Below are positions 5,354-28,473 of a stretch of DNA of 64,000 nucleotides, piece after piece. The notes under the pieces are model-generated. The model saw nothing but the letters and a program-made list of their open reading frames with translations, made no database searches and was not told the origin of the DNA. A program made the position numbers and the translations under genes. Position 1 is the first letter of the stretch. Each line of letters opens with the position of its first letter. Origin of the DNA: Sialis fuliginosa (taxonomy: Eukaryota; Arthropoda; Insecta; Megaloptera; Sialidae); contig OY540809.1 in the NCBI GenBank assembly GCA_961205875.1, positions 17,744,267-17,808,266 on the forward strand. The letters are read 5' to 3'.

Positions 5354-7406
5354 ATCTGAATATACTTACCACTAAGAATAACATTTTGATCACCACAGAT
5401 AATTTATACTGGTGTCTACAGTCTTGTTTGTTATAATAATAATTCAAATACGGTTTATATGTTTTAAATTAGCTTTATAAAGAGTTTTTAAAACTAAATT
5501 GTACATGTTTTACTTTCAGTTATCATAAAAAAAACTGATGTATTATAAGAAAATCACCACCTTTAATTTTGTCAGCAATGCATCTTATACAAAAATTTTG
5601 CTTTAGATATGTATTATTTTTTTTGTAATTAAAGATAATTTTGTAAAAATATCACTCTTAATGTAACAAATTCTTTTCTTGGGTAAATATTTGTGCAGTG
5701 TTTCGCTTAGATATAATATTGTAATATAGTTAAACAAATATAAGATATGATATTGTTTCTGTACCTTCATTTTCTTCTTTTATCGATTGTTGAAGATATG
5801 TTTATTGTTATAGTTAATTAAAAACCTGGTGCTTTCTAATGTGGCACACTTTGTATTATTTAGAGACGACACCTCGATGGAAAAATACAAATTAATTTTA
5901 GTATAAGAAAGATTAAAACAAAATACTTAATAGATGAGTGTTCTATGTAACTTCTCTAATAATTTTCTAGCAAAAAATACATAAATATAATAAAATGAAA
6001 TCAGTGTCAGATACCAAACGTACTTCATAAATAACTAATACAGTAAGACCCTGCTTAACGCAGGGGATACGTTCCAGAAAATGTCGGCGCTAACTAAAAC
6101 AGTGTTTAAAGGGATTATCTTAACATGGGGATAAATGAAATAACAGATTACGATTAAAAAAAATTATTTTGTAACAACACATGTCATAAATATTCAAATG
6201 TAAACATAATGTCATAAAATATTTTTTTCAATACTTTGGTAACTTTTATTTTTACGGGGTGACATACGAGTAGATGGCTGATAAAATAAGTGAATTTTTG
6301 GAATTATTTCAAAAACTATTTGTTTGATTTCGTCCAGGTTTGTTTTAATCTAAAGTATATATATATTGATATATGTTTACGAATTTTTTTATTAATACAT
6401 ATCGACTGGGATTGGTTGCTGTCGTAGCCGGAGTAAAACGTCCCTCGATGCGGTTCCCAAAATTACTGGCAGTCAGTTGATCTGAAACAGAAATTTTAAA
6501 GAGATTCTTACAAGTTAATTTATGATACCCTTCGGTACGAAGGATTTAAAAAAAAAAAAATTCACAAAATGGCACCTGATGAACGTTAAATTCATTTTTC
6601 AACCACAATTTTTGACCCTTCTAGCTTGATAAAATAAAATCCTACGTTCCGAAGGACATCATACATTAACTTCTAAGAATCTCTTTGAAATTTCTGCAGT
6701 AGTATCCTATATTAATCAACTAGTAGATTAATTATGGTAGTATCAAGCAAATTATTGTTACCACCATAACTCAATTTTGCAATAAATCTCGTTTACGATA
6801 CTTTGCGTTCGAGGGGACGTTATGTTGATATCAATTATATATTTTTCTTTTAAAAAGGGTTTATTTTTTTGATTTAAGAAATGAGCATTACAAAAAGTAG
6901 TACTTAACCGTTTGACATTTGCTACTTTTTTTACCCTCACCGCTTTGTTATCAAGGATTATCCAATCAAAAATAATTAATGTGGTGAACTATCTTCAGAG
7001 TATCATCATATATTAATTAACTAGTAAATTAATATATGGTATCATCCCAACCAACCAATGACTACCAAAAAGGGAGGGGGTATTAGGCCACGAGCAGTTT
7101 TTAAAGCCCACAGTTGCTTGTATTATTATATTCTGCAATGTTTCAATGAGAATATCTCAAATAGTTGTCAGTTCTGATTACATATTTCTCATTTTATATC
7201 AAACATCTGAAATCTTATTAATTATTAAAAAAAACTAATGAAGGTACTAATATCGATAAAATACATTTTTGAATGTATGTAATTTTAAGATTTAAAATCA
7301 ACTATGAAATTGTTAATTTGAAATCATTAGAAAGGTTTATTTAATAATTATTATATTAAAAATAAATATTTACAATTTTTAAAGTATAATAAGTCATTAA
7401 AATTAA
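5354..7406. other. Convergent RAD23-TSR2 intergenic region
   Basis: This carries the 3' UTRs of both genes and no recognisable gene. Candidate poly(A) signals are AATAAA at 5989-5994 (+ strand, RAD23) and, on the - strand, the complement of tttatt at 7336-7341, about 65 bp past the TSR2 stop. Near 6043-6120 is a start resembling pogo/Tigger-like MITE ends (cagtaagaccctgcttaacg). An imperfect inverted repeat lies at about 6484-6700, and two related palindromes centred on ACTAGT lie near 6709-6745 and 7003-7046. Confidence 0.6.
6484..6700. repeat. Imperfect inverted repeat, MITE-like
   Basis: The left block (gaaacagaaattttaaagag, then a 'ttaatttatgatacccttcggtacgaagga'-like segment) is mirrored on the right by (tccgaaggacatcata, then cttctaagaatctctttgaa). 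The arms are about 70 bp and diverged. No target duplication is evident and there is no coding content. Confidence 0.45.
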
Positions 7407-7943
7407 TTATTTCCGTCTTTTTCCTGTTATAGTTATCCATTCAGAAGGTTCTTCAGTTTCCATATTACTTCCACATGGTTCTTCTACTTGTTCTGTAGTG
7501 TTTTGTCTGATCTGTCGTGCTTGTCGATTATTTGGTAACTTTGAAAATTCTAATTGAAATTCTTCTAGTTTATTTTCCTTTAATAAATTAAGGAATTTTA
7601 CTAATAATAATGAAACCTCTTTTGGAGAATTATCTTCACAAATTGTATCAAACTCTTGATCGAGAATATCAGTTAAAGCGTCTTCTAAATCAGTTGCGCT
7701 AATATTCGACTGATTAAAACACATATTGCATACATAGTTTTTTATTTGTATTAAAATCTGAAATAAATTAAATAGATATTTAACATTTAAACCAATTTTG
7801 TACAATATTAACGTAGACAAGAGCATGTATTAATAAAAACTAACCTCTTTTACATCTGAATTAGACGAATTTTCTATCGATAATTGTAAAGCTGTCCAAT
7901 TATTAAATATTAAATCTACTACAGATTCAAAATGTTTTTCCAT
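7407..7943 (-). CDS. Tsr2: TSR2, pre-rRNA-processing protein (eS26 escort)
   Basis: The two exons on the - strand are 7943-7845 (33 codons) and 7757-7407 (116 codons plus stop TAA), joined in phase 0 across an 87-bp intron with GT..AG borders; the protein is 149 aa. Exon 1 reads MEKHFESVVDLIFNNWTALQ. The TSR2 signature lies at about residues 56-75 (DLEDALTDILDQEFDTICED), matching the conserved 'L..EFDT..ED' core of the family. The tail is acidic then basic (METEEP, WITITGKRRK). In yeast, Tsr2 shields ribosomal protein Rps26/eS26 and delivers it to pre-40S particles, and its loss blocks 20S pre-rRNA cleavage; the same role is inferred here. The longer open frame reading into the intron from 7826 is not the gene start. 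A giant foldback element begins 65 bp upstream of the start codon. Confidence 0.9.
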
Positions 7944-7999
7944 TTTTGTATTGAATATGTGAATATTTATAGTATTAAATTAATCAAAATATTAAACCA

Positions 8000-8008
8000 T
8001 TATTTCGG
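8000..8008. repeat. 9-bp target duplication of FB-1, left
   Basis: TTATTTCGG here is repeated exactly at 16764-16772, directly outside the other end of FB-1. Confidence 0.9.
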
Positions 8009-8981
8009 ATGTATGTGTAGATAGCGACGATCCAGCGACGGTAGTGGTACCAACGTAAAATAAAGAAATTGTACAAATAAAAATTGCAAATAAAACCTAA
8101 TTAAAGCATCGGGAGTGGAATTAATTAGCATAATTATAACAAACAAACGATTATCTTTCTTATTACGTTATAATTATTCATAATACAACAATTTTAATAA
8201 ACATAACCTTAACATCTGTCAGATACAAAAGTTAATGAAAAAAGTGCTCAAACAGTATTGTTTCAGAGACATAACGCGACAACTATTAATAATATAATAT
8301 TGAACATCTAATTTCATTAAAACAAGTGCTTCGGGTGCCTTAACTATTCTATACTATCGTAAAATGAAGAAAATGTGTCAACAATAGATCCGACCGGCTG
8401 ACTAAAAAAAATATTTCTGAAAGACTATCACCGTTACAGTTGTGAAATTTTTACATAATGTAGAGGGAACCCTAAAGTTTTCAAAAAAAAATTGTCCTTT
8501 ATAGGAACCCCAACTGATTTTAAATAAAAAAATAATTATTAGCCCCTCTAACAATTCGACGGCTTTAATTGATTACGGTATCAAAACGAGCTAACGAAAT
8601 GTCATGAAATTTTAATCCAAACATACAGAAACATAATTACACATTCTAACGCAAACAGCATTTCAAAAAAATGCTTTTACAAAAAAAAGATTACAAAAAT
8701 TTTTTGGGAAAAAAACATTATGTAGAAGTGTGGAATTATAGTGAGTAGGTCCATAAAACTTCACTGATTCGCGTGAAATAGTTATTTTTTTAGAAACTCC
8801 AACCGATTTATTACAATTAATTATTAAATATCAAACATTAATCGTGAGTACATATCAAATCACGTTGGTATACCGGATTCGGCCACACCCCCTTTTATAA
8901 CAGCAAAACAATCGGCTAACGTAACCTAACAAGCCAGCGAAGTGACAAGTAACGTGCAAACATTTCCGAAATTCATTATTA

Positions 8982-9785
8982 TCGGGTGATTCATGTAGAG
9001 GTACTTGTTTCTGTATGGTATTTTTGTTCAGTATTGTTTAACATTTCATCATCGAAAGGCTTAACGCGGTACAGCGTCTACAAATTATTCAGCTGTATTA
9101 TGAAAATCAGTGTTCTACAAAGAATGTGTTTCGTGCGCTTAGAACAACTTATGGTCCACATAATTGGCCTACCGAACGTACAATTCGATATATTTGCAAC
9201 TCAATATTCATTATTGGGTGATACACGTAGTGAACAAAATGTAGCGTCTTATGGGCTGGTGGAATAATTTGAATGACGCCCGTTATCGCGCCATGATAAC
9301 GGACTATTTGCTGCCTGAAATTGAAGCCCGTAATCTCGACGACATTTGGTTCCAATAAGACGGCGCTACTTGCCACACAGCCCGTGAAAGCATGGCTTTA
9401 TTGCGAGAACAATTCGGTGAACAGTTAATTTCACGCTTCAGATCGATGAATTGACCGCCTAAATCTTGGGATATCACACCTCTAGACTTTTTCCTTTGGG
9501 GCTACGTAATGTCCTAAGTCTACATGGATAAGCCGGCTATGATTGAGGAATTGGAAGCCAATATTATTTGCGTCATTTGCCAAATACCACTCGAAATGCT
9601 CTAACGCGTCATCGAAAATTGGAACTGCAGAATGGACCATGTTAGGCGTAGTTACGGCCAACATTTGAAACAAATAATCTTTAAAAAATAAATGTAAAGA
9701 ATTGTTCTTTTATATGATAACAAAGATTACCCGATACAATTGATTTTGATATTATTTTAAAAGTGCATCTAAATGAATCACCCAG
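8982..9785 (+). mobile_element. Internally deleted mariner-like element, copy 1
   Basis: The terminal repeats are tCGGGTGATTCATgTAGAgG and its complement, flanked by TA (8980-8981, 9786-9787). The unit without the insertion reads cattattatttgatc, which proves a TA duplication. The body encodes, with stops, an N-terminal HTH (RLNAVQRLQIIQLYYENQC, PTERTIRY), then jumps to the C-terminal catalytic part (DGATCHTARESMALLREQF, ITPLDFFLWGYV, KPAMIEELEANI, RVIENWNCRMDHVRRSYGQH). This is the insect mariner-like family whose transposase begins with a DUF4817-type HTH. The middle of the transposase, including the first catalytic Asp, is missing. It is 804 bp and cannot move by itself. Confidence 0.85.
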
Positions 9786-11063
9786 TATTTGATCATAATT
9801 GACTTTATAACGTTTTACTGTGTATTGTGTAATAATAAATAACATAATAACATATATCTAGTTGTTTTTTTCATCTGCTTACTATATGAACATTCATATT
9901 ATTATTTTCAGGTATTTTAAATAAAATAAACACTAAGGTAAGTAAATTCTTTATTAACAGTGCATTAATAACTAAGTACATTTGCATAACATGTTTTGTT
10001 AAATATAAATAAGAATGTCACAACAAACGTTCCTGTAAAACTTTCAGTTACTCGTGAAATACAATATTTGCCATATTAAAATTATTTACTTGATCATGCA
10101 TCTTTTTTAGAAGCATGTATAATTCTTTTAATTATCCTTACATTAGTTTTCCTACAGAATTCAAAATTGACAATCAGTTTACATAGGTTATGTCGATCGT
10201 GTTATGTTTACATATAAGAAAAAATAAATTTGGATAAAAACATTGTCGCGATCGTGATGAAAATTACAGAGAATATAGAAAAAATGCTCGGCATTCGATA
10301 CACGAAGAGAAAATTTGCCAAAGTACTACAGATTTTTAAAAATTTGCTTCGTCGTCAGTTATTAACAGCCAGCGACGGAGCTGAAATCTAAAAATCTGTT
10401 GGAGTCGCGCAAATTTTTTCTTTGTTATTCGAACACTGAATATTCATACTACATCCCCTGCAATTTTCATCACGATCGTGTGTATATTTCCAATGAAAAT
10501 TAATATTTACATATACGATACATGACAACAAGGAAATAAATAAAAAAGGCTACCAATGGCTACCATCGACGGTATCCGTTTCGATAATAACGAACATACA
10601 CACGCATACATCTCAAATTATAATGACCGGCCAATATAAAATTTAATTAAGAAAATAATATTGTCTCGATCGTGATGAAAATTACAGGGAAAGTAGAATT
10701 AATACTCAGTGTTCGAATAACGAAGAAAAAATTTGCGCGGCTCCAACAGATTTTTAGATTTCAGCTCCGTCGCTAACTTCCAACTTTTAAAAACATCACG
10801 TAGAAATATGTAAATATGGTCAATAGGTCCATAAAACTTCACTGATTCGCGTAAAATAGTTATTTTTTTAGAAACTCCAACTGATTTATTACAATTAATT
10901 ATTAAATATCAAACATTAATCGTGAGTACAAACCAATTAACGTTGGTATGCCGGATTCGGCCACACCCCCTTTTGTGACAGCAATCCTTATCTATGCAGC
11001 AATCTTAACCTAACAAGCCAGCGAAGTGACAAGAAACATGCAGACATTTCCGAATTTCATTAT
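9786..11063 (+). repeat. FB-1 tandem unit a (1,278 bp)
   Basis: The unit runs from TATTTGATC to the next such junction. It holds in order the block gactttataacgttttac, a tacagaattcaaaattgac block, an inverted sub-repeat bounded by gatcgtgatgaaaatt and its complement, a second half-copy of that sub-repeat ending near gcgacggagctgaaatc, and a block shared with the FB terminal segment (ccggattcggccacaccccc, gccagcgaagtgacaag). Unit b is a near-identical tandem copy. Confidence 0.8.
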
Positions 11064-12316
11064 TATTTGCTCTTAATTGACTTTATAACGTTTTACTGTG
11101 TATTGTGTAATAATAAATAACATATATCTAGTTGTTTTTTTCATCTGCTTACTATATGACCATTTATATTATTATTTTCAGGTATTTGAAATAAAATAAA
11201 CACTAAGGTAAGTAAATTCTTTATTAACAGTGCATTAATAACTAAGTACATCTGCATAATATGTTTTGTTAAATATAAATAAGAATGTCACAACAAACGT
11301 TCCTGTAAAACTTTCAGTTACTCGTGAAATACAATATTTGCCATATTAAAATTATTTACTTGATCATGCATCTTTTTTAGAAGCATGTATAATTCTTTTA
11401 ATTATCCTTACATTAGATTTCCTACAGAATTCAAAGTTGACAATCAGTTTACTTAGGTTATGTCGATCGTGTTATGTTTACATATAAGAAAAAATAAATT
11501 CGGATAAAAATATTGTCGCGATCGTGATGAAAATTACAGAGAATATAGAAAAAATGCTCGGCATTCGATACACGAAGAGAAAATTTGCCGAAGTACTACA
11601 GATTTTTAAAAATTTGCTTCGTCGTCAGTTATTAACAGCCAGCGACGGAGCTGAAATCTCAAAATCTGTTGGAGTTCCGGAAATTTTTTCTTTGTTATTC
11701 GAACACTGAATATTCATACTACATCCCCTGCAATTTTCATCACGATCGTGTGTAAGTATATTTCCAATGAAAATTAATATTTACATATACGATACATGAC
11801 AAGGAAATAAATAAAAAAGGCTACCAATGGCTACCATCGACGGTATCCGTTTCGATAATAACGAACATAAACACGCATACATCTCAAATTATAATGACCG
11901 GCCAATATAAAATTTAATTAAGAAAATAATATTGTCTCGATCGTGATGAAAATTACAGGGAAAGTAGAATTAATACTCAGTGTTCGAATAACGAAGAAAA
12001 AATTTGCGCGGCTCCAACAGATTTTTAGATTTCAGCTCCGTCGCTAACTTCCAACTTTTAAAAACATCACGTAGAAATATGTAAATATGGTCAATAGGTC
12101 CATAAAACTTCACTGATTCGCGTAAAATAGTTATTTTTTTAGAAACTCCAACTGATTTATTACAATTAATTATTAAGTATCAAACATTAATCGTGAGTAC
12201 AAACCAATTAACGTTGGTATGCCGGATTCGGCCACACCCCTTTTTGTGACAGCAATCTTAACCTAACAAGCCAGCGAAGTGACAAGAAACATGCAAACAT
12301 TTCCGAATTTCATTAT
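11064..12316 (+). repeat. FB-1 tandem unit b (1,253 bp)
   Basis: This is a near-identical direct repeat of unit a with a few indels (for example cgtgtgtaagtatatttcc instead of cgtgtgtatatttcc near 11750). The first part belongs to the left arm. From about 11804 the unit lies in the unpaired loop. Confidence 0.8.
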
Positions 12317-12967
12317 TATTTGATCTTAATTGACTTTATAACGTTTTACTGTGTATTGTGTAATAATAAATAACATATATCTAGTTGTTTTTTTCATCTG
12401 CTTACTATATGACCATTTATATTATTATTTTCAGGTATTTGAAATAAAATAAGCACTAAGGTAAGTAAATTCTTTATTAACAGTGCATTAATAACTATAA
12501 GTACATCTGCATAATATGTTTTGTTAAATATAAATAAGAATGTCACAACAAACGTTCCTGTAAAACTTTCAGTTACTCGTGAAACACAATATCTGCTGTA
12601 TTTATTATATTATCCACTTGATTAAATATATCTTTTAGAAGTATAAATAATTCTTTTAATTATCCTTACATTAGATTTCCTACAGAATTCAAAATTGACA
12701 ATCAGTTTACTATAAATTAAGCTCAGAGTTCAATAAATATTTATTTATCATTGACCGTTAATTCTATATTAGTGAAGTTTCATGAAATAGTTGACTATAA
12801 TTACTTTAATTATAAATTTCAGCATTTTTTTGCAGAAGCTATAAACGCTATAAACTATGTCTATGATCTTGACTTTCTATCCAAGTTAAATTTTATATTT
12901 GCCGCGTCTTATCAAATCATCAACTGTATACTTGAATTTGATTGGCTGCGTGCGTCGGTGTGTTTCC
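12317..12967 (+). repeat. FB-1 loop: partial third unit and unique spacer
   Basis: A third unit starts at 12317 and stays recognisable to about 12590. Diverged unit-like sequence then follows (cttacattagatttcctac near 12666) and non-repetitive spacer up to about 12964. The same spacer lies in the opposite orientation in FB-2 (about 22257-22636). An open frame of 93 codons spans it but resembles no family known to me. Confidence 0.75.
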
Positions 12968-15900
12968 TTGTGTCATGTATCGTATATGTAAATATTAATT
13001 TTCATTGGAAATATACTTACACACGATCGTGATGAAAATTGCAGGGGATGTAGTATGAATATTCAGTGTTCGAATAACAAAGAAAAAATTTCCGGAACTC
13101 CAACAGATTTTGAGATTTCAGCTCCGTCGCTGGCTGTTAATAACTGACGACGAAGCAAATTTTTAAAAATCTGTAGTACTTCGGCAAATTTTCTCTTCGT
13201 GTATCGAATGCCGAGCATTTTTTCTATATTCTCTGTAATTTTCATCACGATCGCGACAATATTTTTATCCGAATTTATTTTTTCTTATATGTAAACATAA
13301 CACGATCGACATAACCTAAGTAAACTGATTGTCAACTTTGAATTCTGTAGGAAATCTAATGTAAGGATAATTAAAAGAATTATACATGCTTCTAAAAAAG
13401 ATGCATGATCAAGTAAATAATTTTAATATGGCAAATATTGTATTTCACGAGTAACTGAAAGTTTTACAGGAACGTTTGTTGTGACATTCTTATTTATATT
13501 TAACAAAACATATTATGCAGATGTACTTAGTTATTAATGCACTGTTAATAAAGAATTTACTTACCTTAGTGTTTATTTTATTTCAAATACCTGAAAATAA
13601 TAATATAAATGGTCATATAGTAAGCAGATGAAAAAAACAACTAGATATATGTTATTTATTATTACACAATACACAGTAAAACGTTATAAAGTCAATTAAG
13701 AGCAAATAATAATGAAATTCGGAAATGTCTGCATGTTTCTTGTCACTTCGCTGGCTTGTTAGGTTAAGATTGCTGCATAGATAAGGATTGCTGTCACAAA
13801 AGGGGGTGTGGCCGAATCCGGCATACCAACGTTAATTGGTTTGTACTCACGATTAATGTTTGATATTTAATAATTAATTGTAATAAATCAGTTGGAGTTT
13901 CTAAAAAAATAACTATTTTACGCGAATCAGTGAAGTTTTATGGACCTATTGACCATATTTACATATTTCTACGTGATGTTTTTAAAAGTTGGAAGTTAGC
14001 GACGGAGCTGAAATCTAAAAATCTGTTGGAGCCGCGCAAATTTTTTCTTCGTTATTCGAACACTGAGTATTAATTCTACTTTCCCTGTAATTTTCATCAC
14101 GATCGAGACAATATTATTTTCTTAATTAAATTTTATATTGGCCGGTCATTATAATTTGAGATGTATGCGTGTGTATGTTCGTTATTATCGAAACGGATAC
14201 CGTCGATGGTAGCCATTGGTAGCCTTTTTTATTTATTTCCTTGTTGTCATGTATCGTATATGTAAATATTAATTTTCATTGGAAATATACACACGATCGT
14301 GATGAAAATTGCAGGGGATGTAGTATGAATATTCAGTGTTCGAATAACAAAGAAAAAATTTCCGGAACTCCAACAGATTTTGAGATTTCAGCTCCGTCGC
14401 TGGCTGTTAATAACTGACGACGAAGCAAATTTTTAAAAATCTGTAGTGCTTTGGCAAATTTTCTCTTCGTGTATCGAATGCCGAGCATTTTTTCTATATT
14501 CTCTGTAATTTTCATCACGATCGCGACAATGTTTTTATCCAAATTTATTTTTTCTTATATGTAAACATAACACGATCGACATAACCTATGTAAACTGATT
14601 GTCAATTTTGAATTCTGTAGGAAAACTAATGTAAGGATAATTAAAAGAATTATACATGCTTCTAAAAAAGATGCATGATCAAGTAAATAATTTTAATATG
14701 GCAAATATTGTATTTCACGAGTAACTGAAAGTTTTACAGGAACGTTTGTTGTGACATTCTTATTTATATTTAACAAAACATGTTATGCAAATGTACTTAG
14801 TTATTAATGCACTGTTAATAAAGAATTTACTTACCTTAGTGTTTATTTTATTTAAAATACCTGAAAATAATAATATGAATGTTCATATAGTAAGCAGATG
14901 AAAAAAACAACTAGATATATGTTATTATGTTATTTATTATTACACAATACACAGTAAAACGTTATAAAGTCAATTATGATCAAATACTGGGTGATTCATT
15001 TAGATGCACTTTTAAAATAATATCAAAATCAATTGTATCGGGTAATCTTTGTTATCATATAAAAGAACAATTCTTTACATTTATTTTTTAAAGATTATTT
15101 GTTTCAAATGTTGGCCGTAACTACGCCTAACATGGTCCATTCTGCAGTTCCAATTTTCGATGACGCGTTAGAGCATTTCGAGTGGTATTTGGCAAATGAC
15201 GCAAATAATATTGGCTTCCAATTCCTCAATCATAGCCGGCTTATCCATGTAGACTTAGGACATTACGTAGCCCCAAAGGAAAAAGTCTAGAGGTGTGATA
15301 TCCCAAGATTTAGGCGGTCAATTCATCGATCTGAAGCGTGAAATTAACTGTTCACCGAATTGTTCTCGCAATAAAGCCATGCTTTCACGGGCTGTGTGGC
15401 AAGTAGCGCCGTCTTATTGGAACCAAATGTCGTCGAGATTACGGGCTTCAATTTCAGGCAGCAAATAGTCCGTTATCATGGCGCGATAACGGGCGTCATT
15501 CAAATTATTCCACCAGCCCATAAGACGCTACATTTTGTTCACTACGTGTATCACCCAATAATGAATATTGAGTTGCAAATATATCGAATTGTACGTTCGG
15601 TAGGCCAATTATGTGGACCATAAGTTGTTCTAAGCGCACGAAACACATTCTTTGTAGAACACTGATTTTCATAATACAGCTGAATAATTTGTAGACGCTG
15701 TACCGCGTTAAGCCTTTCGATGATGAAATGTTAAACAATACTGAACAAAAATACCATACAGAAACAAGTACCTCTACATGAATCACCCGATAATAATGAA
15801 TTTCGGAAATGTTTGCACGTTACTTGTCACTTCGCTGGCTTGTTAGGTTACGTTAGCCGATTGTTTTGCTGTTATAAAAGGGGGTGTGGCCGAATCCGGT

Positions 15901-16763
15901 ATACCAACGTGATTTGATTTGTACTCACGATTAATGTTTGATATTTAATAATTAATTGTAATAAATCGGTTGGAGTTTCTAAAAAAATAACTATTTCACG
16001 CGAATCAGTGAAGTTTTATGGACCTACTCACTATAATTCCACACTTCTACATAATGTTTTTTTCCCAAAAAATTTTTGTAATCTTTTTTTTGTAAAAGCA
16101 TTTTTTTGAAATGCTGTTTGCGTTAGAATGTGTAATTATGTTTCTGTATGTTTGGATTAAAATTTCATGACATTTCGTTAGCTCGTTTTGATACCGTAAT
16201 CAATTAAAGCCGTCGAATTGTTAGAGGGGCTAATAATTATTTTTTTATTTAAAATCAGTTGGGGTTCCTATAAAGGACAATTTTTTTTTGAAAACTTTAG
16301 GGTTCCCTCTACATTATGTAAAAATTTCACAACTGTAACGGTGATAGTCTTTCAGAAATATTTTTTTTAGTCAGCCGGTCGGATCTATTGTTGACACATT
16401 TTCTTCATTTTACGATAGTATAGAATAGTTAAGGCACCCGAAGCACTTGTTTTAATGAAATTAGATGTTCAATATTATATTATTAATAGTTGTCGCGTTA
16501 TGTCTCTGAAACAATACTGTTTGAGCACTTTTTTCATTAACTTTTGTATCTGACAGATGTTAAGGTTATGTTTATTAAAATTGTTGTATTATGAATAATT
16601 ATAACGTAATAAGAAAGATAATCGTTTGTTTGTTATAATTATGCTAATTAATTCCACTCCCGATGCTTTAAATAGGTTTTATTTGCAATTTTTATTTGTA
16701 CAATTTCTTTATTTTACGTTGGTACCACTACCGTCGCTGGATCGTCGCTAAGTTACTACAGCT
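12968..16763 (-). repeat. FB-1 right arm
   Basis: This is the reverse complement of 8009-11803, with the mariner copy at 14987-15790 and the terminal segment at 15791-16763. The outermost 13 bp differ from the left end (AGCTGTAGTAACT against ATGTATGTGTAGA), so the two ends can be told apart. Confidence 0.85.
14987..15790 (-). mobile_element. Internally deleted mariner-like element, copy 2
   Basis: This is the mirror copy of 8982-9785 with the same length (804 bp), the same internal deletion and the same 11-bp loss in the HTH region. It is a duplicate made together with the arm, not an independent insertion. Confidence 0.85.
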
Positions 16764-16772
16764 TTATTTCGG
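16764..16772. repeat. 9-bp target duplication of FB-1, right
   Basis: TTATTTCGG, identical to 8000-8008. Confidence 0.9.
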
Positions 16773-17206
16773 CTGTAATTATTTATGTACATATTTTTAT
16801 TCCAATGTGAACCTGCGTAAACCTCATGAATAAAGAGTTGGTAATATTGGCTGGAAACATGGATATCATTTCAAATTGTTTTAGCGGGAACTAAGAATAC
16901 AATAAAAATAAAATAGAAAAGTACAAACATTTTACCGTATTTTACATTCTTTAAAATTAATAGAATTATTCTGAAAAAAATAAATAAAAATTCACAGCAA
17001 CAGTTCAGTCAGTTAGGTCCTAACATTTTGGCCATTTCCGCTGATAAACACAGAAATTTAAAATTTAGGATTAAAATGATCATTATAGGACATTCCATGT
17101 CAACACTTTTATTTTTTAACATATAGTACCCATAAACATATAGTACTCATAAATTCTTTCAATTTTTTTAAATGTCTGTAAGTTCTACATTTTTCTGAGA
17201 AAGGTC
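16773..17206. other. 434-bp host spacer between FB-1 and FB-2
   Basis: This is AT-rich single-copy-looking sequence between the two foldbacks. By the duplication evidence it was originally continuous with both the TSR2 5' flank (before 8000) and the sequence after 28473. It may contain part of the former TSR2 promoter. No motif is convincing. Confidence 0.6.
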
Positions 17207-17215
17207 AATATATTT
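17207..17215. repeat. 9-bp target duplication of FB-2, left
   Basis: AATATATTT is repeated exactly at 28465-28473, directly outside the other end of FB-2. Confidence 0.9.
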
Positions 17216-18188
17216 ATGTATGTGTAGATAGCGACGATCCAGCGACGGTAGTGGTACCAACGTAAAATAAAGAAATTGTACAAATAAAAATTGCAAATAA
17301 AACCTAATTAAAGCATCGGGAGTGGAATTAATTAGCATAATTATAACAAACAAACGATTATCTTTCTTATTACGTTATAATTATTCATAATACAACAATT
17401 TTAATAAACATAACCTTAACATCTGTCAGATACAAAAGTTAATGAAAAAAGTGCTCAAACAGTATTGTTTCAGAGACATAACGCGACAACTATTAATAAT
17501 ATAATATTGAACATCTAATTTCATTAAAACAAGTGCTTCGGGTGCCTTAACTATTCTATACTATCGTAAAATGAAGAAAATGTGTCAACAATAGATCCGA
17601 CCGGCTGACTAAAAAAAATATTTCTGAAAGACTATCACCGTTACAGTTGTGAAATTTTTACATAATGTAGAGGGAACCCTAAAGTTTTCAAAAAAAAATT
17701 GTCCTTTATAGGAACCCCAACTGATTTTAAATAAAAAAATATTTATTAGCCCCTCTAACAATTCGACGGCTTTAATTGATTACGGTATCAAAACGAGCTA
17801 ACGAAATGTCATGAAATTTTAATCCAAACATACAGAAACATAATTACACATTCTAACGCAAACAGCATTTCAAAAAAATGCTTTTATAAAAAAAAGATTA
17901 CAAAATTTTTTTGGGAAAAAAACATTATGTAGAAGTGTGGAATTATAGTGAGTAGGTCCATAAAACTTCACTGATTCGCGTGAAATAGTTATTTTTTTAG
18001 AGACTCCAACCGATTTATTACAATTAATTATTAAATATCAAACATTAATCGTGAGTACAAATCAAATCACGTTGGTATACCGGATTCGGCCACACCCCCT
18101 TTTATAACAGCAAAACAATCGGCTAACGTAACCTAACAAGCCAGCGAAGTGACAAGTAACGTGCAAACATTTCCGAAATTCATTATTA

Positions 18189-19003
18189 TCGGGTGATTCA
18201 TGTAGAGGTACTTTTTTCTGTATGGTATTTTTGTTCAGTATTGTTTAACATTTCATCATCGAAAGGCTTAACGCGGTACAGCGTCTACAAATTATTCAGC
18301 TGTATTATGAAAATCAGTGTTCTACAAAGAATGTGTTTCGTGCGCTTAGAACAACTTATGGTCCACATAATTGGCCTACCGAACGTACAATTCGATATAC
18401 CATCGAAAAATTTACAACTCAATATTCATTATTGGGTGATACACGTAGTGAACAAAATGTAGCGTCTTATGGGCTGGTGGAATAATTTGAATGACGCCCG
18501 TTATCGCGCCATGATAACGGACTATTTGCTGCCTGAAATTGAAGCCCGTAATCTCGATGACATTTGGTTCCAATAAGACGGCGCTACTTGCCACACAGCC
18601 CGTGAAAGCATGGCTTTATTGCGAGAACAATTCGGTGAACAGTTAATTTCACGCTTCAGATCGATGAATTGACCGCCTAAATCTTGGGATATCACACCTC
18701 TAGACTTTTTCCTTTGGGGCTACGTAATGTCCTAAGTCTACATGGATAAGCCGGCTATGATTGAGGAATTGGAAGCCAATATTATTTGCGTCATTTGCCA
18801 AATACCACTCGAAATGCTCTAACGCGTCATCGAAAATTGGAACTGCAGAATGGACCATGTTAGGCGTAGTTACGGCCAACATTTGAAACAAATAATCTTT
18901 AAAAAATAAATGTAAAGAATTGTTCTTTTATATGATAACAAAGATTACCCGATACAATTGATTTTGATATTATTTTAAAAGTGCATCTAAATGAATCACC
19001 CAG
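18189..19003 (+). mobile_element. Internally deleted mariner-like element, copy 3 (longest)
   Basis: This copy is 815 bp, flanked by TA (18187-18188, 19004-19005). It matches copies 1, 2 and 4 but keeps 11 bp (ccatcgaaaaa, about 18400-18410) that the others lack. With these bases the HTH end reads PTERTIRYTIEKF, matching the family pattern, so this copy preserves the ancestral state there. The same catalytic core is missing. Confidence 0.85.
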
Positions 19004-20273
19004 TATTTGATCATAATTGACTTTATAACGTTTTACTGTGTATTGTGTAATAATAAATAACATAATAACATATATCTAGTTGTTTTTTTCATCTGCTTAC
19101 TATATGAACATTCATATTATTATTTTCAGGTATTTTAAATAAAATAAACACTAAGGTAAGTAAATTCTTTATTAACAGTGCATTAATAACTAAGTACATT
19201 TGCATAACATGTTATTTTTAATATAAATAAGAATGTCACAACAAACGTTCCTGTAAAACTTTCAGTTACTCGTGAAATACAATATTTGCCATATTAAAAT
19301 TATTTACTTGATCATGCATCTTTTTTAGAAGCATGTATAATTCTTTTAATTATCCTTACATTAGTTTTCCTACAGAATTCAAAATTGACAATCAGTTTAC
19401 ATAGGTTATGTCGATCGTGTTATGTTTACATATAAGAAAAAATAAATTTGGATAAAAACATTGTCGCGATCGTGATGAAAATTACAGAGAATATAGAAAA
19501 AATGCTCGGCATTCGATACACGAAGAGAAAATTTGCCAAAGTAATACAGATTTTAAAAAATTTGCTTCGTCGTCAGTTCTTAAGAACCAGCGACGGAGCG
19601 GAAATCTCAAAATCTGTTGGAGTTCCGGAAATTTTTTCTTTGTTATTCGAACACTGAATATTCATACTACATCCCCTGCAATTTTCATCACGATCGTGTG
19701 TATATTTCCAATGAAAATTAATATTTACATATACGATACATGACAACAAGGAAATAAATAAAAAAGGCTACCAATGGCTACCATCGACGGTATCCGTTTC
19801 GATAATAACGAACATACACACGCATACATCTCAAATTATAATGACCGGCCAATATAAAATTTAATTAAGAAAATAATATTGTCTCGATCGTGATGAAAAT
19901 TACAGGGGAAGTAGAATTAATACTCAGTGTTCGAATAACGAAGAAAAAATTTGCGCGGCTCCAACAGATTTTTAGATTTCAGCTCCGTCGCTAACTTCCA
20001 ACTTTTAAAAACATCACGTAGAAATATGTAAATATGGTCAATAGGTCCATAAAACTTCACTGATTCGCGTAAAATAGTTATTTTTTTAGAAACTCCAACT
20101 GATTTATTACAATTAATTATTAAATATCAAACATTAATCGTGAGTACAAACCAATTAACGTTGGTATGCCGGATTCGGCCACACCCCCTTTTGTGACAGC
20201 AATCGTAACTGATCGTAACCTAACAAGCCAGCGAAGTGACAAGAAACATGCAGACATTTCCGAATTTCATTAT
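19004..20273 (+). repeat. FB-2 tandem unit a (1,270 bp)
   Basis: This has the same organisation as the FB-1 units. It carries a small variant patch near 19545-19590 (attttaaaaaatttgcttcg, cttaagaaccagcgacggag) that is also present in the mirrored unit at about 26090-26145. Confidence 0.8.
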
Positions 20274-21534
20274 TATTTGATCTTAATTGACTTTATAACG
20301 TTTTACTGTGTATTGTGTAATAATAAATAACATATATCTAGTTGTTTTTTTCATCTGCTTACTATATGAACATTCATATTATTATTTTCAGGTATTTTAA
20401 ATAAAATAAACACTAAGGTAAGGAAATTCTTTATTAACAGTGCATTAATAACTAAGTACATTTGCATAACATGTTATTTTTAATATAAATAAGAATGTCA
20501 CAACAAACGTTCCTGTAAAACTTTCAGTTACTCGTGAAATACAATATTTGCCATATTAAAATTATTTACTTGATCATGCATCTTTTTTAGAACCATGTAT
20601 AATTCTTTTAATTATCCTTACATTAGTTTTCCTACAGAATTCAAAATTGACAATCAGTTTACATAGGTTATGTCGATCGTGTTATGTTTACATATAAAAA
20701 AAATAAATTTGGATAAAAACATTGTCGCGATCGTGATGAAAATTACAGAGAATATAGAAAAAATGCTCGGCATTCGATACACGAAGAGAAAATTTGCCAA
20801 AGTACTACAGATTTTTAAAAATTTGCTTCGTCGTCAGTTATTAACAGCCAGCGACGGAGCTGAAATCTAAAAATCTGTTGGAGTCGCGCAAATTTTTTCT
20901 TTGTTATTCGAACACTGAATATTCATACTACATCCCCTGCAATTTTCATCACGATCGTGTGTATATTTCCAATGAAAATTAATATTTACATATACGATAC
21001 ATGACAACAAGGAAATAAATAAAAAAGGCTACCAATGGCTACCATCGACGGTATCCGTTTCGATAATAACGAACATACACACGCATACATCTCAAATTAT
21101 AATGACCGGCCAATATAAAATTTAATTAAGAAAATAATATTGTCTCGATCGTGATGAAAATTACAGGGAAAGTAGAATTAATACTCAGTGTTCGAATAAC
21201 GAAGAAAAAATTTGCGCGGCTCCAACAGATTTTTAGATTTCAGCTCCGTCGCTAACTTCCAACTTTTAAAAACATCACGTAGAAATATGTAAATATGGTC
21301 AATAGGTCCATAAAACTTCACTGATTCGCGTAAAATAGTTATTTTTTTAGAAACTCCAACTGATTTATTACAATTAATTATTAAATATCAAACATTAATC
21401 GTGAGTACAAACCAATTAACGTTGGTATGCCGGATTCGGCCACACCCCCTTTTGTGACAGCAATCGTAACTGATCGTAACCTAACAAGCCAGCGAAGTGA
21501 CAAGAAACATGCAGACATTTCCGAATTTCATTAT
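20274..21534 (+). repeat. FB-2 tandem unit b (1,261 bp)
   Basis: This is a direct repeat of unit a. It ends with the variant ccttttgtgacagcaatcgt followed by a short aactgatcgt duplication that also marks unit a of FB-2, but not the FB-1 units. Confidence 0.8.
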
Positions 21535-22636
21535 TATTTGATCTTAATTGACTTTATAACGTTTTACTGTGTATTGTGTAATAATAAATAACATATATCT
21601 AGTTGTTTTTTTCATCTGCTTACTATATGACCATTTATATTATTATTTTCAGGTATTTGAAATAAAATAAACACTAAGGTAAGTAAATTCTTTATTAACA
21701 GTGCATTAATAACTAAGTACATCTGCATAATATGTTTTGTTAAATATAAATAAGAATGTCACAACAAACGTTCCTGTAAAACTTTCAGTTACTCGTGAAA
21801 TACAATATTTGCCATATTAAAATTATTTACTTGATCATGCATCTTTTTTAGAAGCATGTATAATTCTTTTAATTATCCTTACATTAGATTTCCTACAGAA
21901 TTCAAAGTTGACAATCAGTTTTCTTAGGTTATGTCAATCGTGTTATGTTTACATATAAGAAAAAATAAATTCGGATAAAAATATTGTCGCGATCGTGATG
22001 AAAATTACAGAGGATATAGAAAAAATGCTCGGTATTCGATATTCGAAGAGAAAATTTGCCAAAGTACTACAGATTTTTAAAAATTTGCTTCGTCGTCAGT
22101 TATTATCAGCCAGTGTTATTATCTGTTGGAGTTGCGGACATTTTTTCTTCGTTATTCGAACACTGAATATTCATACTACATCCCCCGCAATTTTCATCAC
22201 GATCGTGTGTAAGTATATTTCCAATGAAAATTAATATTTACATATACGATACATGACACAAGGAAACACACGGACGCACGCAGCCAATCAAATTCAAGTA
22301 TACAGTTGATGATTTGATAAGACGCGGCAAATATAAAATTTAACTTGGATAGAAAGTCAAGATCATAGACATAGTTTATAGCGTTTATAGCTTCTGCAAA
22401 AAAATGCTGAAATTTATAATTAAAGTAATTATAGTCAACTATTTCATGAAACTTCACTAATATAGAATTAACGGTCAATGATAAATAAATATTTATTGAA
22501 CTCTGAGCTGAATTTATAGTAAACTGATTGTCAATTTTGAATTCTGTAGGAAATCTAATGTAAGGATAATTAAAAGAATTATTTATACTTCTAAAATATA
22601 TATTTAATCAAGTGGATAATATAATAAATACTTACC
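21535..22636 (+). repeat. FB-2 partial third unit and inverted spacer (loop)
   Basis: Unit sequence continues to about 22256 and is followed by the spacer 22257-22636. The spacer is the reverse complement of the FB-1 spacer (about 12587-12964). Arm pairing stops at about 21687 and resumes at about 22637, so about 0.95 kb is unpaired. Confidence 0.75.
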
Positions 22637-23646
22637 TTTACTTACCTTAGTGTTTATTTTATTTCAAATACCTGAAAATAATAATATAAATAGTCATATA
22701 GTAAGCAGATGAAAAAAACAACTAGATATATGTTATTTATTATTACACAATACACAGTAAAACGTTATAAAGTCAATTAAGATCAAATAATAATGAAATT
22801 CGGAAATGTCTGCATGTTTCTTGTCACTTCGCTGGCTTGTTAGGTTACGATCAGTTACGATTGCTGTCACAAAAGGGGGTGTGGCCGAATCCGGCATACC
22901 AACGTTAATTGGTTTGTACTCACGATTAATGTTTGATATTTAATAATTAATTGTAATAAATCAGTTGGAGTTTCTAAAAAAATAACTATTTTACGCGAAT
23001 CAGTGAAGTTTTATGGACCTATTGACCATATTTACATATTTCTACGTGATGTTTTTAAAAGTTGGAAGTTAGCGACGGAGCTGAAATCTAAAAATCTGTT
23101 GGAGCCGCGCAAATTTTTTCTTCGTTATTCGAACACTGAGTATTAATTCTACTTTCCCTGTAATTTTCATCACGATCGAGACAATATTATTTTCTTAATT
23201 AAATTTTATATTGGCCGGTCATTATAATTTGAGATGTATGCGTGTGTATGTTCGTTATTATCGAAACGGATACCGTCGATGGTAGCCATTGGTAGCCTTT
23301 TTTATTTATTTCCTTGTTGTCATGTATCGTATATGTAAATATTAATTTTCATTGGAAATATACACACGATCGTGATGAAAATTGCAGGGGATGTAGTATG
23401 AATATTCAGTGTTCGAATAACAAAGAAAAAATTTGCGCGACTCCAACAGATTTTTAGATTTCAGCTCCGTCGCTGGCTGTTAATAACTGACGACGAAGCA
23501 AATTTTTAAAAATCTGTATTACTTTGGCAAATTTTCTCTTCGTGTATCGAATGCCGAGCATTTTTTCTATATTCTCTGTAATTTTCATCACGATCGCGAC
23601 AATGTTTTTATCCAAATTTATTTTTTCTTATATGTAAACATAACAC

Positions 23647-25005
23647 CACAGAATAATAAATATACAGAAGCGACACTCAACGTTATTTTACTGGAAACAT
23701 CGTTTGACATTAAGAGGTGCGACGGTTCTGATTGGTTGGGTATATATATACTCTGAACCAATCATGTACCAGTATACGAATATTTGAAATCCACATATGT
23801 TTTCTGTTTATTGGAATTAAACCTAACCTATACAACCCATGATGTTTTATTATGTCAAACAATATTTTTTATTGTACAAAAAATTAAATGCACAAATTAT
23901 GTCAGACACAATAAAACATCACGGATTATTAAGGAATAAATAAAATATTCTTACGTTAAGATTAATGAAATAAAAATACAAAATTGTTTTAATTAATGTT
24001 TATTAACTATGACAAATTACTTGATTTACATTTTTTTACACTTAATTCACATAATTTATATATTTCAAGTACAATATTACATTATTTCAATTGCGTTATT
24101 AAGACTAGCACGTTTTATTTCTTACGAAAACTAGCATGTATGATATTTTGCCATGAAAATTAGCACATTTTATTTCTCACCACGTTATCTAGCATTTTTG
24201 ATAACTCACTGCATATTTTAAACATGTTAATTTTCTTTAAAATATGTTAAACATGTTAGTTTTCCTGATATTTCAAAGGTGCTAGTTCTCGTAAGTTAGG
24301 CTCAACTCAGACACTTCAAGTCACTAAAAAATGGCTCGAAGTTGAATACAAACTGAAGTCGAGTTTTGAAGGCATACAGTCACTGGCAGTGGCTGTTACT
24401 TGGCAACATTGAGCCATATTTTAGTTGCTGGAAGTGGCTAGTCGGACTTGAGCCTTAATTATAAAAACACATCAAACTTGAGTACATACCAATATTCTTA
24501 ATGTTTCTTTATCTTCAAGATCTGGAAATATGATGTATGTAGTGTCTGTAAAGTGAAAAATAAATTTCATTAAATTATAAGTTTAATTATTAGCATAAAA
24601 ATATTTATACTTGTTTTTAATAAAAATAAGTTCAATTCAAAGTTGTATCTCAACACATCAATTAAAATAAAGAAGCAAATCAGTCATATGTAATAGAAAA
24701 ACTAATAATAATTAAATACTTACATTAATATTAAAAAATAACGTTAACGTTTTGCAAACCATACACTTCCCGAAGTTCTATACGCCATTTTAGAATACTT
24801 CGCATCTTCCTTCATGTCTAAACTTTTTACATCGTTGCAAAATTTGTATCAACGTTGTACTGTTGTGCAAGACACTTCCTCTTACCTCTCATACGTCTGA
24901 GATCCCAACACCCGGCATCCCCTTACCGCCCATGCCCCTGAGATCCCTACACCCGTTAATGTCAAACTGTGTTTCCAATTTTACCACTAGAGTGACACCC
25001 CCGTG
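23647..25005. mobile_element. hAT-like insertion in FB-2 right arm (1,359 bp)
   Basis: It interrupts the FB unit between gtaaacataacac and cgatcgacataacc. The exact 8-bp direct repeat CATAACAC (23639-23646, 25006-25013) flanks it, as expected for the hAT superfamily. The ends are CACAGAATAATAAATA and AGTGACACCCCCGTG, with only a short match (CAC..G) between them. There is no transposase frame. It carries a smaller MITE at 24299-24454 and degenerate internal copies of a 'gttaaacatgttagtttt'-like phrase. Confidence 0.75.
24299..24454. mobile_element. PIF/Harbinger-type MITE nested in the hAT-like element (156 bp)
   Basis: The ends GGCTCAACTCAGACACTTC and its partner (GAAGTGGCTAGTCGGACTTGAGCC, last 20 bases quoted as TGGCTAGTCGGACTTGAGCC) form imperfect inverted repeats. 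The element is flanked by TTA at 24296-24298 and 24455-24457. The 3-bp TTA duplication fits PIF/Harbinger. Confidence 0.75.
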
Positions 25006-26688
25006 CATAACACGATCGACATAACCTATGTAAACTGATTGTCAATTTTGAATTCTGTAGGAAAACTAATGTAAGGATAATTAAAAGAATTATACATGGT
25101 TCTAAAAAAGATGCATGATCAAGTAAATAATTTTAATATGGCAAATATTGTATTTCACGAGTAACTGAAAGTTTTACAGGAACGTTTGTTGTGACATTCT
25201 TATTTATATTAAAAATAACATGTTATGCAAATGTACTTAGTTATTAATGCACTGTTAATAAAGAATTTCCTTACCTTAGTGTTTATTTTATTTAAAATAC
25301 CTGAAAATAATAATATGAATGTTCATATAGTAAGCAGATGAAAAAAACAACTAGATATATGTTATTTATTATTACACAATACACAGTAAAACGTTATAAA
25401 GTCAATTAAGATCAAATAATAATGAAATTCGGAAATGTCTGCATGTTTCTTGTCACTTCGCTGGCTTGTTAGGTTACGATCAGTTACGATTGCTGTCACA
25501 AAAGGGGGTGTGGCCGAATCCGGCATACCAACGTTAATTGGTTTGTACTCACGATTAATGTTTGATATTTAATAATTAATTGTAATAAATCAGTTGGAGT
25601 TTCTAAAAAAATAACTATTTTACGCGAATCAGTGAAGTTTTATGGACCTATTGACCATATTTACATATTTCTACGTGATGTTTTTAAAAGTTGGAAGTTA
25701 GCGACGGAGCTGAAATCTAAAAATCTGTTGGAGCCGCGCAAATTTTTTCTTCGTTATTCGAACACTGAGTATTAATTCTACTTCCCCTGTAATTTTCATC
25801 ACGATCGAGACAATATTATTTTCTTAATTAAATTTTATATTGGCCGGTCATTATAATTTGAGATGTATGCGTGTGTATGTTCGTTATTATCGAAACGGAT
25901 ACCGTCGATGGTAGCCATTGGTAGCCTTTTTTATTTATTTCCTTGTTGTCATGTATCGTATATGTAAATATTAATTTTCATTGGAAATATACACACGATC
26001 GTGATGAAAATTGCAGGGGATGTAGTATGAATATTCAGTGTTCGAATAACAAAGAAAAAATTTCCGGAACTCCAACAGATTTTGAGATTTCCGCTCCGTC
26101 GCTGGTTCTTAAGAACTGACGACGAAGCAAATTTTTTAAAATCTGTATTACTTTGGCAAATTTTCTCTTCGTGTATCGAATGCCGAGCATTTTTTCTATA
26201 TTCTCTGTAATTTTCATCACGATCGCGACAATGTTTTTATCCAAATTTATTTTTTCTTATATGTAAACATAACACGATCGACATAACCTATGTAAACTGA
26301 TTGTCAATTTTGAATTCTGTAGGAAAACTAATGTAAGGATAATTAAAAGAATTATACATGCTTCTAAAAAAGATGCATGATCAAGTAAATAATTTTAATA
26401 TGGCAAATATTGTATTTCACGAGTAACTGAAAGTTTTACAGGAACGTTTGTTGTGACATTCTTATTTATATTAAAAATAACATGTTATGCAAATGTACTT
26501 AGTTATTAATGCACTGTTAATAAAGAATTTACTTACCTTAGTGTTTATTTTATTTAAAATACCTGAAAATAATAATATGAATGTTCATATAGTAAGCAGA
26601 TGAAAAAAACAACTAGATATATGTTATTATGTTATTTATTATTACACAATACACAGTAAAACGTTATAAAGTCAATTATGATCAAATA

Positions 26689-27491
26689 CTGGGTGATTCA
26701 TTTAGATGCACTTTTAAAATAATATCAAAATCAATTGTATCGGGTAATCTTTGTTATCATATAAAAGAACAATTCTTTACATTTATTTTTTAAAGATTAT
26801 TTGTTTCAAATGTTGGCCGTAACTACGCCTAACATGGTCCATTCTGCAGTTCCAATTTTCGATGACGCGTTAGAGCATTTCGAGTGGTATTTGGCAAATG
26901 ACGCAAATAATATTGGCTTCCAATTCCTCAATCATAGCCGGCTTATCCATGTAGACTTAGGACATTACGTAGCCCCAAAGGAAAAAGTCTAGAGGTGTGA
27001 TATCCCAAGATTTAGGCGGTCAATTCATCGATCTGAAGCGTGAAATTAACTGTTCACCGAATTGTTCTCGCAATAAAGCCATGCTTTCACGGGCTGTGTG
27101 GCAAGTAGCGCCGTCTTATTGGAACCAAATGTCGTCGAGATTACGGGCTTCAATTTCAGGCAGCAAATATCCGTTATCATGGCGCGATAACGGGCGTCAT
27201 TCAAATTATTCCACCAGCCCATAAGACGCTACATTTTGTTCACTACGTGTATCACCCAATAATGAATATTGAGTTGCAAATATATCGAATTGTACGTTCG
27301 GTAGGCCAATTATGTGGACCATAAGTTGTTCTAAGCGCACGAAACACATTCTTTGTAGAACACTGATTTTCATAATACAGCTGAATAATTTGTAGACGCT
27401 GTACCGCATTAAGCCTTTCGATGATGAAATGTTAAACAATACTGAACAAAAATACCATACAGAAACAAGTACCTCTACATGAATCACCCGA
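26689..27491 (-). mobile_element. Internally deleted mariner-like element, copy 4
   Basis: This is the mirror of copy 3 in the right arm of FB-2. It is 803 bp: it lacks the 11 bp kept by copy 3 and has one further 1-bp loss near 27166. In this it is closer to the FB-1 copies than to its own partner arm. Confidence 0.85.
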
Positions 27492-28464
27492 TAATAATGA
27501 ATTTCGGAAATGTTTGCACGTTACTTGTCACTTCGCTGGCTTGTTAGGTTACGTTAGCCGATTGTTTTGCTGTTATAAAAGGGGGTGTGGCCGAATCCGG
27601 TATACCAACGTGATTTGATTTGTACTCACAATTAATGTTTGATATTTAATAATTAATTGTAATAAATCGGTTGGAGTTTCTAAAAAAATAACTATTTCAC
27701 GCGAATCAGTGAAGTTTTATGGACCTACTCACTATAATTCCACACTTCTACATAATGTTTTTTTCCCAAAAAATTTTTGTAATCTTTTTTTTGTAAAAGC
27801 ATTTTTTTGAAATGCTGTTTGCGTTAGAATGTGTAATTATGTTTCTGTATGTTTGGATTAAAATTTCATGACATTTCGTTAGCTCGTTTTGATACCGTAA
27901 TCAATTAAAGCCGTCGAATTGTTAGAGGGGCTAATAAATATTTTTTTATTTAAAATCAGTTGGGGTTCCTATAAAGGACAATTTTTTTTTGAAAACTTTA
28001 GGGTTCCCTCTACATTATGTAAAAATTTCACAACTGTAACGGTGATAGTCTTTCAGAAATATTTTTTTTAGTCAGCCGGTCGGATCTATTGTTGACACAT
28101 TTTCTTCATTTTACGATAGTATAGAATAGTTAAGGCACCCGAAGCACTTGTTTTAATGAAATTAGATGTTCAATATTATATTATTAATAGTTGTCGCGTT
28201 ATGTCTCTGAAACAATACTGTTTGAGCACTTTTTTCATTAACTTTTGTATCTGACAGATGTTAAGGTTATGTTTATTAAAATTGTTGTATTATGAATAAT
28301 TATAACGTAATAAGAAAGATAATCGTTTGTTTGTTATAATTATGCTAATTAATTCCACTCCCGATGCTTTAATTAGGTTTTATTTGCAATTTTTATTTGT
28401 ACAATTTCTTTATTTTACGTTGGTACCACTACCGTCGCTGGATCGTCGCTAAGTTACTACAGCT

Positions 28465-28473
28465 AATATATTT
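28465..28473. repeat. 9-bp target duplication of FB-2, right
   Basis: AATATATTT, identical to 17207-17215. Confidence 0.9.

Follow-up and report, generated by a model that had tools for sequence, protein, structure and literature searches.

Two palindromes of 8,755 and 11,249 bp, called W1 and W2 here, stand close together in a 64,000-nucleotide stretch of the genome of the megalopteran Sialis fuliginosa (the window, C1:17744267-17808266 of a 392-Mb genome assembled in 20 contigs). They raise the question of what such structures are and, if they are mobile, of which enzyme moves them. It is probable that W1 and W2 arose by recent insertion of a non-autonomous foldback element that is moved in trans by the Rehavkus-like (Mutator-related) transposase of a related element. 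The elements have precise ends, 9-bp target duplications and empty sites, they have been copied recently, and their termini are shared with gene-carrying elements. In window positions, the two palindromes are laid out as follows.

8000-8008, plus strand: left 9-bp target duplication of W1, TTATTTCGG
8009-16763, plus strand: W1, foldback element of family A, 8,755 bp (copy search and arm alignment)
8009-8021, plus strand: left terminal 13 bp of W1, non-inverted, ATGTATGTGTAGA
8009-8981, plus strand: terminal segment of W1; families B, C and D end in sequence homologous to its first ~90 bp
8022-11801, plus strand: left arm of W1 (3,780 bp; complementarity with the right arm 99.8%)
9042-9218, plus strand: mariner-like fossil of W1, DUF4817 helix-turn-helix (PF16087, E 9e-12, Pfam)
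9786-12710, plus strand: tandem units of W1, about 2.3 x 1.25-1.28 kb, from the left arm into the loop
12971-16750, minus strand: right arm of W1
16751-16763, plus strand: right terminal 13 bp of W1, non-inverted, AGTTACTACAGCT
16764-16772, plus strand: right 9-bp target duplication of W1, TTATTTCGG
17207-17215, plus strand: left 9-bp target duplication of W2, AATATATTT
17216-28464, plus strand: W2, foldback element of family A, 11,249 bp
17229-20686, plus strand: aligned portion of the left arm of W2 (3,458 columns, 99.4%)
19004-22266, plus strand: tandem units of W2, left side
23509-26275, no strand assigned: interval containing the 2,629-bp block that W2 has in addition to the near-identical copy on C6, the block starting within 23509-23647
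25006-28451, minus strand: right arm of W2, aligned part
28465-28473, plus strand: right 9-bp target duplication of W2, AATATATTT

The palindromes are real, and the lengths and both perfect 9-bp duplications reported in a preliminary description of this locus are exact; at the local base composition, a perfect pair of 9-mers is expected by chance with a probability of about 1.3e-5. The arms of W1 enclose 1,169 bp, and the arms are made up of a terminal segment of ~0.97 kb, a degraded mariner-like stretch and units of ~1.26 kb. The mariner fossil that had been described is supported by the match to DUF4817, a domain of mariner/IS630-like transposases; the mirror copy of this stretch is placed by arm symmetry at about 15554-15730, and three other open reading frame (ORF) fragments of the mariner-like stretch of W1 have no Pfam match. 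The units of ~1.26-1.27 kb are present with the internal inverted sub-repeats noted before, and in them a part of the terminal segment recurs in diverged form, the units of W1 including two copies (about 87-88%) of its part 703-974. The arm length had been given as 3.8-4.5 kb, of which the lower value holds for W1 (3,780 bp) and the upper value does not correspond to one clean arm, the arms of W2 being aligned over 3,458 bp and followed by rearranged units. Of the ORFs that lie wholly inside the window, none listed reaches 150 codons from stop to stop.

When the genome is searched with the terminal segment, at least 13 full elements of family A are found, W1 and W2 included, with lengths of 7,451 to 15,858 bp; the best 40 of 109 and the best 40 of 68 candidates were scored, and such counts are lower bounds. 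A perfect 9-bp target duplication flanks all 13 copies, and every 9-mer is different. Within one element, the arms are 96.3-99.97% identical over 2,965-3,789 aligned columns. The outermost 13 bp on the left and on the right are not inverted repeats of each other, and each recurs in the 13 copies, the left end being ATGTATGTGTAGA or ATGTGTGTGTAGA and the right end, read inwards, AGCTGTAGTAACT, with one right-side change in the copy L020. Long inverted arms, internal tandem repeats, a target duplication, differing insertion sites and empty sites are thus all present, as in the foldback class, and the identification of these elements as foldback DNA transposons with 9-bp duplications is borne out.

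The insertion sites show that the family has been mobile. The joined flanks of W1 and W2 match their own locus only, besides short matches that span no more than 103 bp (75-87%), and a segmental duplication is rejected, as these flanks are unique. For the joined flanks of the other 11 copies, the best 40 of 3,332 candidates were scored, and among these, six paralogous places run across the junction of L015; three of the six were examined, and TTTAAATAA is single and intact at two of them, the third having 4 extra bases inside it. At the empty site of L012, CAGGAACAT is present once, and the homology starts just left of the duplication and continues. The case of L017 is less clear, with two repeats whose likeness covers the left side of the junction and extends about 25 bp past it, and with the 9-mer altered. 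Recent movement is seen from the comparison of W2 with L016 (C6:4.12 Mb), which have 2 mismatches in 8,620 bp when the 2,629-bp block of W2 is left out, and which lie on different contigs with different 9-bp duplications; from this near-identity it follows that family A moved recently. W1 and W2 are 452 bp apart, counting one 9-mer of each, and such closeness of two of the 13 insertions would be expected about 2 times in 10,000 at random, which suggests local or targeted insertion.

Copies that lack duplications or share flanks, the outcome that the preliminary description had named as contrary to transposition, are not what is seen, with perfect duplications at 13 of 13 copies, 9-mers that all differ and unique flanks of W1 and W2. 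It is also hardly credible that the palindromes are assembly artefacts, or a segmental duplication that is palindromic by coincidence. Misassembly can create palindromes, and the evidence comes from one assembly and no reads, but the structure recurs at 13 loci with differing flanks and 9-mers, the arms of family A differ by up to 3.7%, the flanks of W1 and W2 are unique and empty paralogous sites exist.

The terminal ~90 bp of family A are, by alignment, common to three further families, B, C and D, and to a miniature element. Scans with terminal-motif patterns gave 66 and 47 matches, compared with 11 and 8 for reversed control patterns. Over all families, 22 of the 27 paired ends have a perfect 9-bp duplication and 2 more match at 8 of 9 letters, the count covering ends for which a partner was found; several single ends exist besides. 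The pair C14:1639293/1691284 (4 of 9 letters) is counted among the 27, and it is probably one end that was duplicated, since the DNA flanking its two members is the same in mirror image. As a separate observation, the foldback ends at C14:1470807, 1639293 and 1691284 (L055, L053 and L054) share flanking DNA, one of them inverted, and this region is probably a duplicated segment plus an inverted copy.

Family B has three elements of 3.4-5.5 kb, with a perfect duplication in two of the three, and its arms contain a reverse-transcriptase fragment (PF00078, 4e-14; L022 is the one copy checked). The DNA left of two B insertions (L022:55-578 and L023:26-549) is itself palindromic, pointing to other inverted-repeat elements beside or under these foldbacks. 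Family C has eight end pairs, five with perfect duplications, two with 8 of 9 letters and one with none; a C foldback carries units of ~570 bp, a 13.6-kb C copy has, by eye, a reverse-transcriptase element in its 7-kb interior, and five C copies (two on C2, two on C10 and one at C14:4.1 Mb) have no transposase match among the best 75 of 115 candidates. Family D is one element of 21,959 bp (C11:1616277-1638235) with the duplication CCATTTAGT, which is present once at the empty site, in the counterpart inside the gene-carrying C copy on C14. Its outer ends of 934 bp are 99.9% identical and are accompanied by two arrays of a 571-bp unit, repeated 13.4 and 9.4 times, with about 3.7 kb of other DNA between the right array and the right end. 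The miniature is 332 bp long and occurs as one copy, with the duplication CGAAAAATA.

The preliminary description had proposed to look for a copy whose loop encodes a transposase of the Mutator-like element (MULE) type. In the 13 copies of family A, no recognisable piece of the candidate transposase described below is found, and none of the 10 Pfam MULE matches of the genome lies between paired foldback ends. It was right to look for the enzyme in a related element, and a candidate is found in a C copy with shared termini. This 12.7-kb copy (C14:6105963-6118635) has inverted ends of ~955 bp that are 99.7% identical, the likeness stopping there, and it contains two overlapping ORFs, of 585 and 508 codons, in different frames. 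The 585-codon ORF is DDE-like, with the motifs DATG, TDF, CVAH and STVEAW across the two ORFs; these shared D, D, (C)xxH and E motifs of the candidate transposase were read by eye. The 508-codon ORF has an Ulp1 domain (PF02902, 4.7e-13) and, at its end, a C4HC3 finger pattern, for which the Pfam PHD match is under the cut-off (E 0.019) and C1_1 is equally weak. Neither ORF matches the Pfam MULE model, any other Pfam transposase model or the THAP domain. Tandem repeats are not seen within the parts examined of this gene-carrying copy.

Pieces of this gene recur. The D foldback holds residues 1-316 of the C-copy transposase, 80-88% identical, in two pieces, and the genome has at least 81 matches to the 585-codon ORF (best 75 of 115 candidates scored). 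The diverged relatives L073 (C1:7.59 Mb) and L074 (C8:4.64 Mb) have open frames of 1,190 and 1,174 codons, their DNA is about 99.8% identical and 165-bp tandem repeats adjoin the gene; this pair suggests that the transposase lineage was recently active in this genome. By eye, their C-terminus resembles a ubiquitin protease, with no Pfam match. Another diverged relative, L075 (C6:4.73 Mb), has an open frame of 1,312 codons in the genome search and of 1,215 codons in the piece examined, with an N-terminal OTU domain (3.8e-5) and a C-terminal Ulp1 domain (4.1e-6) around the transposase core, and with no Pfam MULE domain. Separately, degraded transposase copies at C1:42272478-42303274 follow a repeating pattern of ~5 kb, as if tandemly duplicated.

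Other transposases of the same genome have also been considered as the engine. Proteins matching the PF20700 'Mutator' model are rejected, since the ends of their two recent lineages are unrelated to the foldback ends. The PF20700 elements are apparently flanked by TTAA, clearly on both sides in L066 and L069 only; TTAA elements go by the name Kolobok. As an observation in its own right, the PF20700 elements L065-L070 (C2:32.3 Mb; C14:6.66 and 6.69 Mb; C8:7.24, 7.90 and 22.8 Mb), with copies that are 99.7-99.95% identical and ORFs of 587 codons (L065) and 578 codons (L070), are a recently active DNA transposon. The Pfam MULE domain has 10 matches in the genome, none of which sits between paired foldback ends when coordinates are compared. 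Two of the 10 lie in the Phantom-like elements L026 (C7:18.2 Mb) and L029 (C8:1.32 Mb), which are 94.8% alike, have ORFs of 479 and 482 codons and are adjoined by tandem repeats of roughly 135 bp, with FLYWCH and MULE domains in L026; as engine these copies are rejected, their apparent ends being unrelated to the foldback ends.

It is nevertheless conceivable, if unlikely, that the same foldbacks have another mover, for example a Phantom-like MULE (FLYWCH and MULE domains) such as the one present here in two similar copies. The 9-bp duplications are consistent with MULEs, and a Phantom-like transposase is found inside the foldback-like Tm1 elements of nematodes (PMC3169594). Against this stand the two points just given, the apparent ends of the Phantom-like copies, which differ from those of the foldbacks, and the lack of any MULE-domain match between paired foldback ends. 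P-type elements make 8-bp duplications, and 9-bp duplications are found here at 22 of 27 paired ends. There is accordingly only a slight chance that these foldbacks stem from P elements (Galileo-like) or from another non-Mutator group and are convergent in structure, the more so as the linked ORFs have no THAP domain match; the foldback-linked transposase does lack a Pfam transposase match of any kind, and Galileo is an example of foldback arms arising in other superfamilies too (PMC4079207, PMC3169594).

The transposase of the relatives matches no Pfam MULE model (PF10551) and looks Rehavkus-like. Rehavkus is described with a 9-bp duplication, inverted ends of 26-400 bp, a transposase that has a PHD finger and, before the 3' end, a minisatellite (PMC6446971), and Rehavkus-1_TC of Tribolium is 9.5 kb long, its inverted termini containing satellite monomers of 164 bp (PMC10218199). 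In agreement with these descriptions, the duplication is of 9 bp (at 22 of 27 paired ends, with none at the gene-carrying copy). The C4HC3 pattern, with its weak Pfam PHD match (E 0.019), may be a PHD finger, and the 571-bp units of D, the ~570-bp units of a C foldback and the 165-bp repeats of L073 and L074 may correspond to the minisatellite. The longer units, the non-autonomous palindromes and the Ulp1 domain are unlike Rehavkus, as compared by description only. Judged by features only, namely the 9-bp duplication, the PHD-like finger and the tandem repeats close to the ends, the engine is likely Rehavkus-like. The mover of family A would then be a Rehavkus-like DDE transposase with Ulp1 protease and PHD-like domains, which, supplied in trans, would recognise the conserved terminal block TAGC(G/A)ACG..CAGC(G/A)ACG.., cut at the outer ends and join the element to a 9-bp staggered cut.

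Several observations weigh against a Rehavkus-like transposase as the mover of W1 and W2. With the foldback-linked transposase as query (tblastn, E 1e-3), no transposase piece is detected in the 13 A copies, nor in the three B copies and the C stretches L040, L041 and L044, so that the link of the transposase to family A rests on the shared termini and the duplication length. The 12.7-kb C copy has no 9-bp duplication (3 of 9 letters match); its two ORFs are in different overlapping frames, and its transposase gene may be broken; its middle contains the repeat into which D inserted, and other DNA may be nested in it. The transposase gene of D is truncated and interrupted, and most of the listed transposase matches are degraded and lie outside paired foldback ends. 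A profile comparison of the candidate transposase lineage with the MULE-domain proteins of the same genome is not significant and gives tiny alignments. The inverted ends, ~955 bp in the gene-carrying C copy and 3.0-3.8 kb in family A, exceed the 26-400 bp of the descriptive range of Rehavkus (PMC6446971). The transposase is called Rehavkus-like and not Rehavkus because the PHD match is weak, the ends are longer than the published range, the gene-carrying copy has no duplication and it is set beside Rehavkus by description only. Autonomy of the A copies themselves is rejected: the longest, L018 (C5:17.34 Mb; 15.9 kb), owes its length to nested and duplicated DNA, and its longest stop-to-stop ORF has 144 codons. 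At positions of about 3400-8600, L018 contains extra DNA with direct repeats of 727 bp and 448 bp, each 97.5%, which is probably nested, duplicated mobile DNA.

The huge arms may have grown from simple inverted ends of ~955 bp via tandem amplification of an inner unit, possibly by unequal exchange among units, and in some elements one arm may have been copied onto the other, by gene conversion or template switching within the palindrome. The comparison of arms among the 13 A copies covers their outer 1,687 bp. In W2 and L016, the two arms of each element differ at 8 positions and each arm is identical to its counterpart in the other copy; therefore, that transposition carried both arms unchanged. 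In L014, the element's own arms have 0 differences, with at least 7 to the nearest other arm, and in L017, 0 differences, with at least 4, which indicates that one arm was copied onto the other. L010, L011 and L012, with arms identical within and between copies, are uninformative in this respect. The other pattern, in which the element's own arms differ more than one of them does from the arm of another copy, is seen in 8 of 13 copies (W1, W2, L009, L013, L015, L016, L018 and L020) and speaks against arm copying as a rule; homogenisation of the arms is therefore occasional and not general.

Foldbacks with arms of tandem units are already known (Tetris, Tm1, Rehavkus-1_TC), and the elements described here are a variant with longer arms. 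Tetris of Drosophila virilis is a non-autonomous foldback with arms of up to 1,735 bp, units of ~220 bp and 8-10-bp duplications, for which no transposase was found (PMC4079207). As in family A, its arms combine an outer flanking domain and an inner domain with tandem units that have a stretch in common with the outer one; it is also non-autonomous, its units occur in satellite arrays and it has a short relative, a miniature inverted-repeat transposable element (MITE), as compared by published description. Family A, with arms of 3.0-3.8 kb aligned and units of ~1.26 kb, and D, with an end of 0.93 kb and 571-bp unit arrays of 5.4 and 7.7 kb, differ from Tetris in these sizes. Tm1, a Mutator/foldback element of root-knot nematodes, shares 9-bp duplications, composite tandem-repeat arms, MITE forms, a transposase in one rare copy and short asymmetric motifs outside the inverted repeat, comparable with the outer 13 bp of family A; its tandem motif of ~14 bp and its Phantom-type FLYWCH/MULE transposase are different (PMC3169594). 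Drosophila FB4 resembles family A in long inverted ends and 9-10-bp duplications, its mover being described as an unknown transposase, and differs in inverted ends of ~700 bp, as compared by description only (PMC8277862). A survey of arthropod MULEs gives inverted ends of up to 1,193 bp in its text and 1,527 bp in its table (PMC13359780). The arms of family A are longer than the maxima for Tetris (PMC4079207) and in this survey, and no foldback with arms this long was found in the open-access literature consulted, most subscription papers and Repbase lying outside that search. The view that both the large units and the long arms are unlike described elements is thus kept for the arms; tandem units have precedents in Tetris (~220 bp) and Rehavkus-1_TC (164 bp).

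A wider proposal can be put forward tentatively: that these elements represent a new animal foldback lineage with a Rehavkus-like transposase fused to Ulp1 and a PHD-like finger, whose ~955-bp ends were repeatedly inflated to palindromes of up to 22 kb via unit amplification and arm copying, and which provides a candidate engine for Tetris and FB4. Foldbacks have been linked to inversions and satellite formation in insects, and several of them, Tetris and FB4 included, are reported to have an unknown transposase. The genome studied here contains elements with shared termini that range from a miniature of 332 bp, by way of a gene-carrying copy whose ends measure ~955 bp, to palindromes of 7-22 kb; with this series and the near-identical recent pair, it can be tested directly how foldback arms originate and what their engine is. 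The transposase of the related elements, which is of a rarely described type, is a testable candidate for the missing engine of gene-less foldbacks. If true, the Rehavkus-like/Ulp1 assignment would give Tetris and FB4 a candidate transposase family.

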